Source: Fimbriimonas ginsengisoli Gsoil 348
GTDB lineage: Bacteria; Armatimonadota; Fimbriimonadia; Fimbriimonadales; Fimbriimonadaceae
Reading direction: 5' to 3'
NCBI RefSeq assembly: GCF_000724625.1
Contig: NZ_CP007139.1
Coordinates: forward strand, 1,798,001-1,862,000
Length of the DNA stretch: 64,000 nucleotides
Position numbers and translations under genes: made by a program. Below the pieces are notes generated by a model, which worked only from the letters and a program-made list of their open reading frames with translations, searched no databases and had not been told where the DNA came from. Of this stretch, positions 13,261-40,699 are shown one piece after another (positions within the stretch are counted from its first letter, which is position 1; each line of letters starts with the position of its first letter).

Positions 13261-15732
13261 ATGCTGACCCCCTTGATCCTGGCCATGCTCAGTCACGCCT
13301 TACCGGCGTCCCAACGTCCACCTACCGACGCCGCGGTCGAGCGGCGGGTTGAAGAGATCCTCGGCAAGATGACGGTCGAAGAAAAGATCGACTACATCGG
13401 CGGCTATCGGGGATTCTATACGCAGCCGATTGCCCGCCTCGGACTCGACCCTTATAAGATGTCAGACGGCCCGGCCGGAGTGCGGAACTACGGCCCCGAT
13501 ACCGCCTACACCTCGCCCGTTACGATGGCGGCGAGTTGGGATCCCGAACTGGCGCGGCGAGTCGGCCGGTCGTTCGGCCTCGACGCCCGACAGCGAGGCG
13601 TCCATATCGTTCTGGCTCCCGGCGTCAACATCAACCGGGTCCCGATGAACGGCCGCAACTTCGAGTACCTGGGCGAAGACCCGTACCTGGCATCGCAGCT
13701 CGTCGCCCCTTGGATCCAGGGAATCCAGGGCGAGGGGGTGATCGCCACCGTCAAGCATTACGCCGCGAACAGCCAAGAGCACGGCCGGTGGAACTACTCC
13801 ATGGACGTAGACGAGCGCACCCTGCGAGAAATCTATTTCCCCGCATTCGAGGCGGCCGTCAAGAAGGGCAAGGTTTGGAGCGTCATGTGCGCCTACAACC
13901 TCCTCAACGGAGTGTACTGCTCGGAAAATAAGTGGCTTCTCGACGACGTATTGAAGAAAGATTGGGGGTTCCAGGGGTTCGTGATGAGCGACTGGGGCGC
14001 GGTGCACAGCTCCATCCCGGTCGCGAACGGAGGCCTCGACCTGGAAATGCCGGGACCGCAGTTCCTTAACCGACGCACTCTCACCCCCGCCCTGCAAGAC
14101 GGAACCGTGTCCCAAGCGACGATCGACGACAAAGTTCGCCGGATGCTGCGCGCCTTCGTTTCCATGGGATTCCTCGACCGCAAACAGGAGCGCCCCGAGT
14201 TGCCCGCCGAGAGTCCGGAAGGGGCCGAAACCACCTACCAGGAAGCCAAGGAAGGAATGGTTCTGCTCAAGAACGACCACAACATCCTCCCGTTCGACGC
14301 TCGAAAAGTCAAGAAGATCGCCGTCATCGGGCCAAACGGCCACCCCGCTGTTTGGGGCGGCGGCGGCAGCGCGTTCACGACCCCGTTCCGTGCGATCAGC
14401 GTCCGCGACGCCATCGCCGCGGCGGTGCCGGGGGCGACGGTTACCTTCGCACCGGGAATGGTCGCTTCTTCCTCCGAGTCGTTCGGCACCGCTCGCTTCC
14501 AGACAGAATCGGGGGCGAACGGCCTAACCGCCGAATACTTCAACAACAAGAACCTGGAAGGCACGCCACAGGTGACGCGAATAGATCGACGCGTGAACGC
14601 CCATTACGAGAATGCCCCCGCCCCGGGAATCGAGCGAACCAATTTCTCGGTGCGATGGACCGGAACGTTCACCGTTCCCGAAACCGGCGATTACGAGATC
14701 GTCGCCCGCGGGGATGACGGATTCCGAGTCTGGATCGACGGCAAAAAGGTGATCGACGAGTGGCGGGACCAAGCCGCTTTCGACGCGATGGCCACCCTGC
14801 ATTTTGCAGCCGATTCCACTCACTCCGTGAAGATGGAGTACTACCAAGGCGAAGGTGACGCCGAGATCCATCTCGGCTGGCGAAAGGTTTCCGGGCGGTC
14901 GATCGACGAAGCGGTCAACGCCGCCAAAGACGCGGACGCCGTCGTGGTCTCCGTCGGCTTCAATCCCCGCTTGGAAGGAGAGGGGGACGACCGGACGTTC
15001 CGGCTTCCGAAGGGGCAGGACGACCTCATTAAGCGCGTCGCCGCCGTGAACCGAAACGTGGTGGTCGTGTTGAACGCCGGCGCCTCGGTCGACACCACGA
15101 GGTGGCTGGATAAGGTGCCCGGGTTCGTCCAAGCGTGGTATCCCGGCCAAGACGGCAACCGGGCGCTGGCCGCGATCCTCTTCGGCAAGGAGAACCCGAG
15201 CGGGAAGCTGCCCATATCCTTCGACCGCCGGTGGGAGTATTCGGCCGCCTACGGCAATTATCCCGGCGATCCAGAAAAGCGGGTGAAGTACGCCGAAGGG
15301 ATCTTCGTCGGCTACCGCCATTACGACGCCTCCAAGTACAAGCCGCTCTACCCATTCGGATTCGGCTTGTCTTACACGACGTACGGGTATTCGAACCTAA
15401 CCGTGACCCCGATGCGGTCGCACGAGCCTCAGGTGCGGGTCGAGTTCGACGTCCGCAACACCGGCAAGCGAACCGGCGACGAGATCGCCCAGGTGTACGT
15501 GCGGGCTCCGAAAGGAAGCGTCCCCCGGCCGGTTAAGGAGCTCAAGGGTTTCTCGCGGGTGCGGGCGATCCGCCCGGGCGCATCGAAGCACGTCGTGGTA
15601 ACCCTCGACTCGCGCGCCTTCGCCTACTGGGACGTAGCGAAGAAGGATTGGGTGGTTCCGCACGGCGAATATCGAATCCTCGTAGGCGGCTCGTCGCAAA
15701 ACCTGCCCCTCTCCGGTTCGGTTCGCCTGTAA
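13261..15732 (+). CDS. GH3 beta-glucosidase with inserted PA14 domain
   Basis: An 823-residue secreted glycoside hydrolase family 3 enzyme. A signal peptide (LTPLILAMLSHALPA) precedes the TIM-barrel domain, where GFVMSDWGAVH carries the nucleophile Asp244 and VKHYAANSQE is conserved. A PA14 domain interrupts the second domain at about residues 420-545 (GLTAEYFNNKNLEG ... YYQGEGDAEIHLGW). A C-terminal fibronectin-like domain follows (EPQVRVEFDVRNTG). It would release glucose or other sugars from beta-glucans or glycosides outside the cytoplasm. cutC follows with no gap. Confidence 0.93.
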   Translation: MLTPLILAMLSHALPASQRPPTDAAVERRVEEILGKMTVEEKIDYIGGYRGFYTQPIARLGLDPYKMSDGPAGVRNYGPDTAYTSPVTMAASWDPELARRVGRSFGLDARQRGVHIVLAPGVNINRVPMNGRNFEYLGEDPYLASQLVAPWIQGIQGEGVIATVKHYAANSQEHGRWNYSMDVDERTLREIYFPAFEAAVKKGKVWSVMCAYNLLNGVYCSENKWLLDDVLKKDWGFQGFVMSDWGAVHSSIPVANGGLDLEMPGPQFLNRRTLTPALQDGTVSQATIDDKVRRMLRAFVSMGFLDRKQERPELPAESPEGAETTYQEAKEGMVLLKNDHNILPFDARKVKKIAVIGPNGHPAVWGGGGSAFTTPFRAISVRDAIAAAVPGATVTFAPGMVASSSESFGTARFQTESGANGLTAEYFNNKNLEGTPQVTRIDRRVNAHYENAPAPGIERTNFSVRWTGTFTVPETGDYEIVARGDDGFRVWIDGKKVIDEWRDQAAFDAMATLHFAADSTHSVKMEYYQGEGDAEIHLGWRKVSGRSIDEAVNAAKDADAVVVSVGFNPRLEGEGDDRTFRLPKGQDDLIKRVAAVNRNVVVVLNAGASVDTTRWLDKVPGFVQAWYPGQDGNRALAAILFGKENPSGKLPISFDRRWEYSAAYGNYPGDPEKRVKYAEGIFVGYRHYDASKYKPLYPFGFGLSYTTYGYSNLTVTPMRSHEPQVRVEFDVRNTGKRTGDEIAQVYVRAPKGSVPRPVKELKGFSRVRAIRPGASKHVVVTLDSRAFAYWDVAKKDWVVPHGEYRILVGGSSQNLPLSGSVRL

Positions 15733-16446
15733 ATGGAGAGGGTCCTCGTCGAGGTCGTCGCCTGCACCGCCGATGACGCGGTGCGGGCGGAGGCAGTGGG
15801 GGCCGACCGGATCGAATTGGTCTCCGCGATCTCCGAAGGCGGCCTCACCCCTTCTATCGGCGCACTCGCCGAAACCAAGGCGCGCTGCCGCCTGCCTATC
15901 ATGGCGATGCTCCGCCCGAGAGGCGGCGGCTTCGTCTACACCGACGCCGAGTTCCAGACGATCCTCCGCGACGCGGAAGCTCTCTTAGCGGCAGGAGCCG
16001 ACGGCCTAGTCGTCGGAATCCTCGCCGACCGCGGCATCGACGAGGACCGCATCCGGCGCTTCGTCCAGATCGCCGGTGTTCAACCGGTAACCTTCCACCG
16101 CGCATTCGACCTACTCCCCGATCCCTTTGCCGCTCTATCGCGACTTCGAGATCTCGGAGTGGCTAGGGTGCTAACGCGTGGTGGTCTTTCCAGCATCAAT
16201 CCCGCTCGGCTCCGGCAGTACGCCGAGCATGCCCAGGTAATCCAACTCCTCGCCTGCGGCGGCATCCGTGCCGCCAACGTGTCCTCCGTCGTCGCCGAGT
16301 CCGGCGCTGCCCAAATCCACCTCGGCCCATTCATCCCGAAGCGCGATCCGGTCTTCTACAATCCAGCCGACCCAACTCTAGTCGAGCACTTGACGTTGGA
16401 TGATGAGGAAGTGAGAAGAGTAGTGAGAGCCATCCAGCCCGTATAG
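15733..16446 (+). CDS. cutC: CutC family protein
   Basis: A 237-residue TIM-barrel protein of the CutC family: VEVVACTADDAVRAEAVGAD and RIELVSAISEGGLTPS are the family start, and MLRPRGGGFVYTDAE and TFHRAFDL are conserved further on. The family is named for copper homeostasis in E. coli, but the molecular role is disputed. The ATG follows the GH3 stop immediately, so the two are probably cotranscribed. The TAG stop is the first part of a large inverted repeat. Confidence 0.9.
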   Translation: MERVLVEVVACTADDAVRAEAVGADRIELVSAISEGGLTPSIGALAETKARCRLPIMAMLRPRGGGFVYTDAEFQTILRDAEALLAAGADGLVVGILADRGIDEDRIRRFVQIAGVQPVTFHRAFDLLPDPFAALSRLRDLGVARVLTRGGLSSINPARLRQYAEHAQVIQLLACGGIRAANVSSVVAESGAAQIHLGPFIPKRDPVFYNPADPTLVEHLTLDDEEVRRVVRAIQPV

Positions 16447-16605
16447 ACTGCGGTGACCTGTCACCGCTTTTTCCTCAGCGAGCCTGCGAGCGTTGCTCAT
16501 AAAGAAAGCAGGGTTCATCGGCTGGGAGCCGATGCTACGAGTTCGATTCCTCCCACCGCTCGCAGGCTCGCTACTTAAAGCGGTGACAGGTCACCGCAGT
16601 CTATA
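16442..16605. repeat. 164-bp nested inverted repeat whose ends are the stop codons of two convergent genes
   Basis: The left arm 16442-16491 and right arm 16557-16605 are nearly perfect inverted repeats of about 49 bases (TATAGACTGCGGTGACCTGT ... with the palindrome GGTGAC-GTCACC inside each arm). The 65-base loop holds another palindrome at 16512-16539 (CATCGGCTGGGAGCCGATG). The left end supplies the TAG of cutC and the right end the TAG of the pantothenate kinase gene on the minus strand. It probably acts as a bidirectional terminator or cruciform; part of the arm recurs at 40671. Confidence 0.8.
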
Positions 16606-17389
16606 GGGGTTGAGACCTTTCTCGGATCGTGATCCTGGAAATGTGGTGGTCGGACTCTTTCCTCAGCACCACGTCCGCGTACTCCTGGGTCGGCGCTATA
16701 TTTTCCCGAAGATTGACGAGGTTCACCTCCCGCCAGACGCCGCGGGCGCGGTCGAGGAATTCGTCGGTCGCCATCTGGCGGAACTGCCAGTAAAACGAAT
16801 CCGGCTCCGCCCGCTCGCGTAAACCGAGGAGACGCGCCAAGAACCACTGCTCGACCACCTCTTCGTCCGCATCCAAGTAGATCGCCAAGTCGATCGACGC
16901 CGGATCGTAGAAGGCGGCGACCCCTTCGAAGATCACCATGCCCGGATTCTCCAAACTCCGCCCGCCCCCTTCCACAACGTCGTAGGTTTCGTGGGAGTAA
17001 ACGGGCGCGTTGGCAGCTTTACCGGCCCGCAGATCGGCGAGAAACCGGTGCATCTTCGCCCGGTCGTAGCTCCGAGGGAACCCCTTCAGGTGCATGATCC
17101 CCTGCGCTTCCAGCACCCGAGTGGGATAGAGAAACCCATCCGTCGAGACGATCTCGACCGGGCCTATCGCCTCTGAAATCAGTTGCTGCATCACCCGGCA
17201 GAAAGTCGTCTTGCCGACCGCCACACTCCCAGTGACGCCGATCACGAACGGACGCCGCTCCTCGATTATCCGCAGCAGCGGAAGGAAAACCTCCACCACC
17301 TCCTCCCGAGGCGCCAGCTCTACTTCCCCTCCTAACGCCGAAGAGTGCGATGCCAGCGCCGCCCATTCCGCGCGAGAGTACGTGACCAC
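16601..17389 (-). CDS. coaA: type I pantothenate kinase (CoaA-like)
   Basis: A 262-residue P-loop kinase. The N-terminal YSRAEWAALA matches the CoaA start. The Walker A motif is GVTGSVAVGKTT (about residues 51-62), followed by STDGFLYP, LKGFPRSYD and APVYSHETYDVV, all typical of type I pantothenate kinase rather than uridine kinase. It phosphorylates pantothenate, the first step of CoA synthesis. It is shorter than E. coli CoaA (316), mostly at the C-terminus. Start at GTG 17389; the APC permease gene diverges 38 bases away. Confidence 0.78.
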   Translation of the reverse strand: MVTYSRAEWAALASHSSALGGEVELAPREEVVEVFLPLLRIIEERRPFVIGVTGSVAVGKTTFCRVMQQLISEAIGPVEIVSTDGFLYPTRVLEAQGIMHLKGFPRSYDRAKMHRFLADLRAGKAANAPVYSHETYDVVEGGGRSLENPGMVIFEGVAAFYDPASIDLAIYLDADEEVVEQWFLARLLGLRERAEPDSFYWQFRQMATDEFLDRARGVWREVNLVNLRENIAPTQEYADVVLRKESDHHISRITIRERSQPL

Positions 17390-17427
17390 GAAGACCTAGC
17401 CTACCGCTCCCGTTCACAATTGGCGAC

Positions 17428-18774
17428 GTGAAGCAAGGCCTTCGGTTCTGGCCCCTGGTGGCGGCAATCTACTTCTGCGTCTGCGGGGGACCGTACGGGC
17501 TGGAAGAGGTCGTCAAGAGCGGCCCCGGAATGGCGATCTTCCTCATCCTCCTCATGCCCCTGGTGTGGGCGATTCCCGCCGCCTTGATGACCGCCGAGTT
17601 GACCAGCGCGATCCCGGCCGAGGGTGGTTACTACGTCTGGGTCCGGCGGGCGATGGGGCCGTTCTGGGGCTTCCTTTGCGGATGGTGGACCTGGGTTTAC
17701 ACCTGGGTAGACGTAGCGATCTATCCGGTGATGTTCGCCACCTACGTCCAAACTTTGCTCCGCCTCTTTGGCTACGGAGCCGCTTTCGACGACCGCCCAT
17801 GGCTCCGCTGGGGCGTCGGAATGGCAATCATCGTTCCGCTCACCTGGCTTAACATCCGGGGCGTAAAGGTGGTCGGCAAGACGGCGGTCGGATTCTTCGC
17901 GCTGCTGCTGATTCCATTCGTCATCCTCGTCGCGCTCGGCCTTCCCGCCTTCCTGTCCCATCCCGAAACCGCCATTACTCCGCGGTACGTGGGCAAGTCC
18001 GCCTACGAGGCGTTCACCGCCGGACTGTTCCTCGTGATGTGGAACTACTTGGGATGGGATTCCATGTCGACCATCGCGGGCGAAGTGGAAGATCCGAAAA
18101 AGGCGTTCCCGCGAGCGCTCGCTCTCGGCGTTCCTTTGGTGACGCTGACCTACCTCATCCCGGTCCTCGTCGGCCTCGCCTTCCTCCGCGATCCGGCCGC
18201 ATGGACGGAGGGCGCCTGGACGGAGGTGGCCCGGCGAATCGGCGGATCTCCGCTTGCCATCGCAGTGGCGTTCGGAGGCATTATCTCGGCCGCCGGCCTG
18301 TTCTCGTCGACCTTGCTCGCCGGGTCTCGGGTCCCGTTCGTCATCGCCGAAGACAACGTTCTGCCTCGCGCGCTGACTCGAGTTCACTCCCGCTACGGCA
18401 CCCCCTGGGTAGCCATCCTGGTTAGCGCCGTTTTCTATTCCGTCTTCAGCTTCGGCAAGCTCTCCGATCTGGCCGAAGTCGACGTAGTCATCTACTCCGC
18501 CGGGCTGTTTCTAGAAACGATCGCGCTCCTCGTGTTGCGGTACCGGGAGCCCGAGCTTCCGCGGCCGTACCGAATCCCCGGCGGTTGGCCCGGCGTCATC
18601 GTCCTCGCCTTGGCGCCCAAGGTGATCCTCGTCGCGGCGATCGTCGCCCAGGTTCAAGGGGAGGATGGAAGAAAAACCCTCCTTGTAACCGCCGTCGCCC
18701 TCCTAAGCGGCCCCGTCGTGTGGTACTCGCGGAAACTCACTCATATGAAAATTGCCCGAGCGTCCGAGCCATAG
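17428..18774 (+). CDS. APC-family amino acid permease
   Basis: A 448-residue integral membrane protein with about 12 transmembrane helices, of the amino acid-polyamine-organocation superfamily. GPYGLEEVVKSGPGMAIF corresponds to the helix-1 substrate loop, and AGEVEDPKKAFPRAL is the conserved loop after helix 6. It starts at GTG 17428. The last eight codons form the left arm of a terminator hairpin, so the C-terminal MKIARASEP may be a by-product of that structure. The substrate is unknown. Confidence 0.88.
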   Translation: MKQGLRFWPLVAAIYFCVCGGPYGLEEVVKSGPGMAIFLILLMPLVWAIPAALMTAELTSAIPAEGGYYVWVRRAMGPFWGFLCGWWTWVYTWVDVAIYPVMFATYVQTLLRLFGYGAAFDDRPWLRWGVGMAIIVPLTWLNIRGVKVVGKTAVGFFALLLIPFVILVALGLPAFLSHPETAITPRYVGKSAYEAFTAGLFLVMWNYLGWDSMSTIAGEVEDPKKAFPRALALGVPLVTLTYLIPVLVGLAFLRDPAAWTEGAWTEVARRIGGSPLAIAVAFGGIISAAGLFSSTLLAGSRVPFVIAEDNVLPRALTRVHSRYGTPWVAILVSAVFYSVFSFGKLSDLAEVDVVIYSAGLFLETIALLVLRYREPELPRPYRIPGGWPGVIVLALAPKVILVAAIVAQVQGEDGRKTLLVTAVALLSGPVVWYSRKLTHMKIARASEP

Positions 18775-40649: not shown

Positions 40650-40670
40650 GTGGCCTCCTATGAAGACCGT

Positions 40671-40693
40671 GGTGACAGGTCACCGCAGTCTAC
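40671..40693. repeat. GGTGACAGGTCACC palindrome with CAGTCTA tail
   Basis: GGTGACAGGTCACCGCAGTC followed by TAC, matching the right arm of the large repeat at 16582-16603 base for base apart from the last position. It lies between the convergent GH51 and GNAT genes. Confidence 0.7.
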
Positions 40694-40699
40694 AAGGTC

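Follow-up and report, generated by a model that had tools for sequence, protein, structure and literature searches.

A 164-bp inverted repeat lies between the convergent genes cutC and a pantothenate-kinase-like gene in Fimbriimonas ginsengisoli Gsoil 348. The window analyzed here is a 64,000-nucleotide stretch of that genome (contig NZ_CP007139.1, positions 1,798,001 to 1,862,000). The repeat consists of two inverted units of a dispersed hairpin family, and the TAG in the head of each unit is the stop codon of the gene that reads into it; three further genes in the genome stop at the same TAG of other copies. We favor, with moderate confidence, a mobile hairpin of REP/MITE-like type that inserts at the 3' ends of genes and there provides stop codon and transcribed hairpin in one, plausibly working as a weak two-way terminator and a barrier at the RNA 3' end.

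As single-stranded DNA, 16442–16605 folded at -68.4 kcal/mol, compared with a mean of -23.9 (sd 3.1, z -14.35) for shuffled sequences, of which 0 of 200 reached as low. Fold energy and paired arms bear out the 164-bp cruciform reported in a first-pass annotation of this DNA, and chance is no plausible source of such an inverted repeat. Its outer stem comprises 29 perfect pairs (16442–16470 with 16577–16605), followed by a 6/4-nt interruption and a 16-bp stem (16477–16492 with 16557–16572), so that the arm length of about 49 bases given earlier is right if the interruption is counted in. The GGTGAC..GTCACC motif ascribed to each arm was found in both as GGTGACCTGTCACC, the further palindrome placed in the loop is CATCGGCTGGGAGCCGATG at 16516–16534, and the outer TAGs do end the two open reading frames as described (Table 1). 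Each stop stands 3 nt from its hairpin, and the T-run beyond the hairpin is T5 for cutC and T3 for the kinase gene. A 26-nt head pattern (≤3 mismatches) matched three times in the window versus 0 times in 100 shuffles. ARAGORN found no tRNA in the window, and 15400–17800 gave only three matches against Rfam, all far below gathering scores. The idea of a tRNA remnant in the loop was dropped on these negatives and on the membership of the loop core in a 142-copy repeat family.

Table 1. Coordinates of the repeat, its parts and the neighboring genes (positions within the window)
Feature	Position	Strand	Description
cutC family gene	15733..16446	+	237 aa; Pfam CutC above cut-off, NCBIfam CutC equivalog below cut-off
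Whole element	16442..16605	.	Two inverted units of dispersed hairpin repeat, second repeat in loop
Left unit	16442..16492	+	Head TATAG, hairpin GCGGTGAC-CT-GTCACCGC, T5, inner tail AGCGAGCCTGCGAGCG
Left-head TAG	16444..16446	+	cutC stop codon
Hairpin and T5	16450..16472	+	Terminator-like by consensus
Loop REP	16516..16538	-	GTAGCATCGGCTCCCAGCCGATG, 1 of 142 genomic copies
Right unit	16557..16605	-	Same family, inverted; hairpin then T3
Right-head TAG	16601..16603	-	Kinase gene stop codon
Type I pantothenate-kinase-like gene	16601..17389	-	262 aa; NCBIfam panK_bact 233.5 bits, just under cut-off 235
Worn 34-bp palindrome	40661..40694	.	Same family, between another convergent gene pair; stops 11 and 5 nt off

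A search of the host chromosome (5,231,762 bases, one contig) with the whole element, in which 40 of 165 candidates were scored, returned partial copies of two sorts, one spanning approximately 50–60 bp around the arms and the other a loop segment of approximately 29 nt. The consensus of the arm unit is TATAGACTGCGGTGRCCTGYCACCGC then TTT, with AGCGAGCCTGCGAGCG (≤2 changes) next in 16 of 23 copies. Chromosome-wide, the head pattern (≤3 mismatches) recovered 24 heads at 20 loci, compared with one match of a reversed control pattern. Spaced inverted pairs were found at two of the 20 loci, the window element and 3277699–3277920. Two loci hold 34-bp self-palindromes (1460877–1460910 and 1687242–1687275), remnants that would be expected if a full pair had undergone a deletion from one of its palindromic cores to the other. 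Head tags were ATAG (16 of 24), TTAG (4), GTAG (2), ACAG (1) and ATCG (1). The loop core belongs to a separate family that carries GTAG and has 142 copies (≤2 mismatches) against 0 control matches. The flank of the heads, tallied for 23 with the weakest (L048) left out, leaned weakly towards CAACCC, most markedly at -3 (C in 20/23), after which the repeat starts sharply; this preference may reflect target choice or a worn element end. Units at L037, L043 and L044 (own-genome positions 3066404, 2491127 and 3052208) have longer left and right flanks in common, apparently because all three are embedded in a larger inverted repeat that belongs to a further family.

Five genes use the head TAG as their stop codon, encoding CutC, the kinase, a class-I glutamine amidotransferase (TrpG/PabA type), an adenosine deaminase and a glyoxalase-family protein. 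All five read the head in the same frame. Three of the proteins, from unlinked genes, end in CAACCCCTATAG (Gln-Pro-Leu-stop, QPL), a common end of 12 nt; CutC ends in the similar CAGCCCGTATAG and the deaminase in neither. The five heads carry 3–6 T in the 8 nt after the hairpin. Seven more genes reading towards a head end 1, 5, 7, 17, 28, 35 and 47 nt before it, and in all half of the 24 heads lie next to the 3' end of a gene; the remaining 12 do not, some lying beside gene starts and one inside a gene. Among the genes around all 20 loci, none was called as ending elsewhere inside a unit; these calls and those at the sister loci described below came from simple models of our own (a codon-usage caller for the 20 loci), not a published caller. 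At L135:4390-5775 (own genome 1072389–1073774), a unit lies in frame and antisense inside a HupE/UreJ-type gene, where it codes for some of the residues that precede the HupE domain (NARRLATESGGGPPQSI). A GGCCCGCC-type repeat lies in this segment too, and the linker looks to be built from repeats. Another unit, at about position 1501 of L041 (own genome 2105290), lies inside a lysine- and alanine-rich open frame of 457 codons that was not called as a gene.

How much of each protein the element could have supplied was judged from the C-terminal ends. The CutC protein scored 160.8 bits against Pfam (cut-off 23.3); 11 of 15 usable orthologs end within two alignment columns of it and 4 end 6–7 later, two others (L102 and L103) being left out. 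The kinase matches solved pantothenate kinases (E down to 6.4e-53) as far as residue 256 or 257 of 262. The closest protein found in the phylum (46% identity) lacks 4 residues at the C-terminus by comparison, and the comparison is limited to this relative because the tails of the other two align unreliably. From the extent of these matches and ortholog ends, the element can account for only about 3–5 codons plus the stop of each gene. The earlier proposal that an inserted element replaced both gene ends at once thus stands in part: the arms are dispersed repeat copies that hold both stops, as insertion would give, but "replaced" is too strong. No close ortholog of the kinase was present in the 30 nearest other genomes (three weak matches, 26–32% identity), and a search of named genomes found no relative; orthologs at 42–46% identity numbered three among 291 genomes of the phylum, all in other families. 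Near-absence of the gene from close relatives hints that it was gained horizontally or lost repeatedly. A different palindrome, GGTGGGCATCTTGCCCACC, directly follows the cutC stop in a second species of the genus (L110), and unrelated repeats may settle at this same gene end.

For three of the five genes, the unit was absent from the ortholog ends. Between -30 and +200 nt of the matched end, it was found (≤6 substitutions) in 0 of 46 orthologs (CutC 17, amidotransferase 18, deaminase 11), while our three own genes were positive in the same test. The 17 usable amidotransferase ortholog tails ranged from -4 to +9 residues (L162 left out as out of frame, L172 not in the range), and the eight usable deaminase tails from -5 to +7 (L184, L185 and L186 left out as out of frame). 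The closest amidotransferase relative (82% identity) ends 3 residues later, and beyond its stop a hairpin that ends T-rich can be made out by eye. Pfam domains of the amidotransferase, deaminase and glyoxalase proteins were matched nearly to the profile end. Since the orthologs for these three genes stop at about the same point and the unit is missing from all 46, a few last codons appear to have been taken over, not a domain. Where this could be judged (CutC, amidotransferase, deaminase and kinase), the comparisons indicate that the element touched only variable last residues. After the stop of one deaminase ortholog (L187), a stretch resembles by eye a worn unit with a small deletion, which may be chance.

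Relatives of the repeat are patchily distributed. Within the genus, the head pattern was present in 3 of 20 genomes, and within the family a wider pattern was present in 4 of 85, own genome included in both counts. A sister form with the head TTTGGA[CG]TG, which has no TAG, occurred in at least 119 stretches by exact pattern scan of a public genome set. Among the 80 of these whose titles were shown, most were from Verrucomicrobiota, Planctomycetota, Chlamydiota and Acidobacteriota, with others from WOR-3, Hydrogenedentota, one Chthonomonas and one unplaced bacterium. Among the stretches listed, 99 of 140 sister heads had an inverted partner within 420 nt, the pairs measuring 65–187 nt end to end with one exception of 372. 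Of 101 sister heads with 700 nt on both sides, 25 lie in long ORFs, while gene 3' ends are faced by 47 and 5' ends by 29. Stops fall within 30 nt of the head for 11 of the 47 that face a 3' end; in several loci the sister form directly follows the stop, and 2 of 47 ORFs end inside the unit by a crude gene model.

One stem pair varies in both forms: A-T in 98, G-C in 40 and A-C in 2 of 140 sister heads, from a search pattern that allowed all four combinations, and G-C in 14, A-T in 7 and other in 2 of 23 own units. The pair therefore covaries as A-T or G-C in 138/140 and 21/23, respectively, counts that are inflated by copies related by descent. This pattern points clearly to a stem kept as structure. 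In a same-genus genome (G011; L068, L071, L077 and L080), dense clusters of inverted sister-repeat pairs differ in stem sequence and keep the pairing.

The search for an enzyme that might move the repeat covered both forms. No unit lay within approximately 1.5 kb of a Y1 transposase match at the 10 loci looked at, of 13 in the own genome. The loop family does flank a Y1 transposase gene, in L052, with one exact and one worn copy, one per side. Open reading frames among the clustered units of relatives yielded no transposase parent. A profile of five own Y1 proteins gave no match in the 119 sister loci, although it is insensitive, recovering one of five held-out divergent own Y1 loci. Wider inverted pairs numbered five in these loci, and only one had otherwise unpaired ends, around an ORF without the look of a transposase; no parent autonomous element for the repeat was found there.

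We propose that a pair of inverted REP/MITE-like units, with a GTAG-type REP of another family in the loop, landed between the convergent genes at their 3' ends, in one or several events. The TAG of the head (mostly TATAG) would have become the stop of both genes, taking over their last few codons. In both directions the resulting order would be a stop, 3 nt, a GC-rich hairpin and a short T-run: a portable gene end that joins a stop codon to a 3' hairpin serving as weak two-way terminator and RNA 3'-end barrier. By consensus, the hairpin with T5 or T3 is a predicted weak terminator; a terminator scan over 2.4 kb gave one site on the cutC strand and none on the other, against an average of 1.8 in shuffles. 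In favor of this reading stand what was observed directly, namely dispersal, stop use in five genes, stem covariation and absence of the unit from ortholog ends for three genes, together with the patchy distribution (4 of 85 family genomes yet many copies in distant phyla) and, in the sister form, the inverted partners and the larger number of heads facing 3' than 5' ends; transposition, an enzyme behind it and termination are inferred. Against it speak the mostly short T-runs, a terminator scan no richer than shuffles, the 12 heads away from 3' ends and the lack of a Y1 transposase gene near a unit at the 10 of 13 own loci looked at. Two ordinary gene ends might instead have met a local inverted repeat by coincidence. 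Orthologs with like ends but no repeat had been named in the first-pass annotation as a sign that the overlap is chance, and for CutC such orthologs exist, ending at about the same place. This does not make the overlap of the cutC and kinase stops a matter of chance: elsewhere in the genome three more genes take their stop from precisely this TAG in other copies. The arms belong to a dispersed family, the five genes use the same TAG position (three of them with the common 12-nt end), and a random frame would give five of five at (1/3)^5, or ~0.004, which together make coincidence highly improbable.

Whether the hairpin does useful work at gene ends is harder to judge. It could be purely selfish, tolerated at 3' ends because insertions elsewhere were purged, with stop and hairpin serving no purpose. 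The heads that do not adjoin 3' ends, the units beside gene starts and inside a gene, and the patchy distribution all fit such an element, and its stem could be kept because a transposase needs it. The 3'-end bias and common frame at five genes, however, also fit selection for a clean gene end, and the data separate the two poorly; we regard a purely selfish hairpin as quite unlikely. A role in translation, in which the hairpin 3 nt past the UAG would hold up ribosomes as they terminate and so reduce the yield from both genes, is also on the unlikely side, if less so. The 3-nt distance suits it, and passages of the RepRanger paper (PMC12306157), citing earlier work, describe this effect for E. 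coli REPs up to 15 nt from the stop, but those REPs differ in sequence. Stalling is compatible with a portable gene end, which we continue to prefer.

Several known systems resemble the element in part. In the passages of Di Nocera et al. (2013, PMC3733652) drawn on here, GTAG REPs were located near where convergent genes end in two examined species, their termini often give TAG stops to flanking ORFs, and REP dimers are set inside other palindromes. The arm family shares with them short palindromic units near the 3' ends of convergent and unidirectional genes, termini used as TAG stops, and many dispersed, largely extragenic copies (24 heads at 20 loci, at least one inside a gene). It differs in that only 2 of 24 heads carry the GTAG tag and in having no transposase gene next to a unit at the 10 of 13 loci looked at. 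REPINs are defined, in the sections of Bertels and Rainey (2011, PMC3116915) used here, as two inverted units plus a spacer, predicted to form one long hairpin. The window element and 3277699–3277920 are such doublets, as are the pairs formed by 99 of the 140 listed sister heads, but spaced inverted pairs account for only 2 of the 20 own loci and no linked RAYT was seen at the 10 Y1 loci looked at. With MITEs or TIR-type repeats of tyrosine transposases, as portrayed in parts of PMC3733652, the hairpin family has in common short length, terminal inverted repeats, patchiness across genomes and a mostly paired sister form, but no parent element for it was found. Excerpts of PMC1590033 describe hairpins between convergent genes as two-way terminators in other bacteria. 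These likewise place a hairpin next to convergent stops with T-runs on both sides, whereas in the window element the T-runs are short and the stop codons lie inside the repeat. The E. coli REPs of PMC12306157, in the portion considered, share the hairpin ≤15 nt past a stop codon; in the window the stop belongs to the repeat itself, and stalling is putative.

No description of this repeat family appeared in the open-access literature searched (core sequences; palindromic repeats of Armatimonadetes, Fimbriimonas, Verrucomicrobia and Planctomycetes), although it may be among the consensus families in the figures of PMC3733652. The Fimbriimonas literature matched only on a heme-binding protein, and broader searches listed known work on REPs and MITEs. 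The principle of a repeat-supplied stop is already published, as passages of that paper on GTAG REPs make plain; the present case departs from it in a head that is mostly not GTAG, in a sister family spread over other phyla and in the lack of a mover. A bolder reading, which we put forward only as a doubtful possibility, is that mobile hairpins form one family across phyla, mobilized by some enzyme still to be connected with them, and that in this lineage the family has TATAG as its head instead of TTTGGA. It would thereby have become a portable gene end composed of a C-terminal tripeptide (often QPL), a stop and a terminator hairpin, of which an inverted pair would serve two convergent genes at once.

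The element shows concretely how a single repeat family can rewrite, again and again, the final codons and stop of unrelated genes, and the case is backed by unit-free orthologs and a covarying stem. It is tied to a sister repeat across several phyla, whose mover was not found. Since a REP terminus as stop codon is already in print, the gain is not a new principle but a clean test system for transcription end, translation end and mobility.
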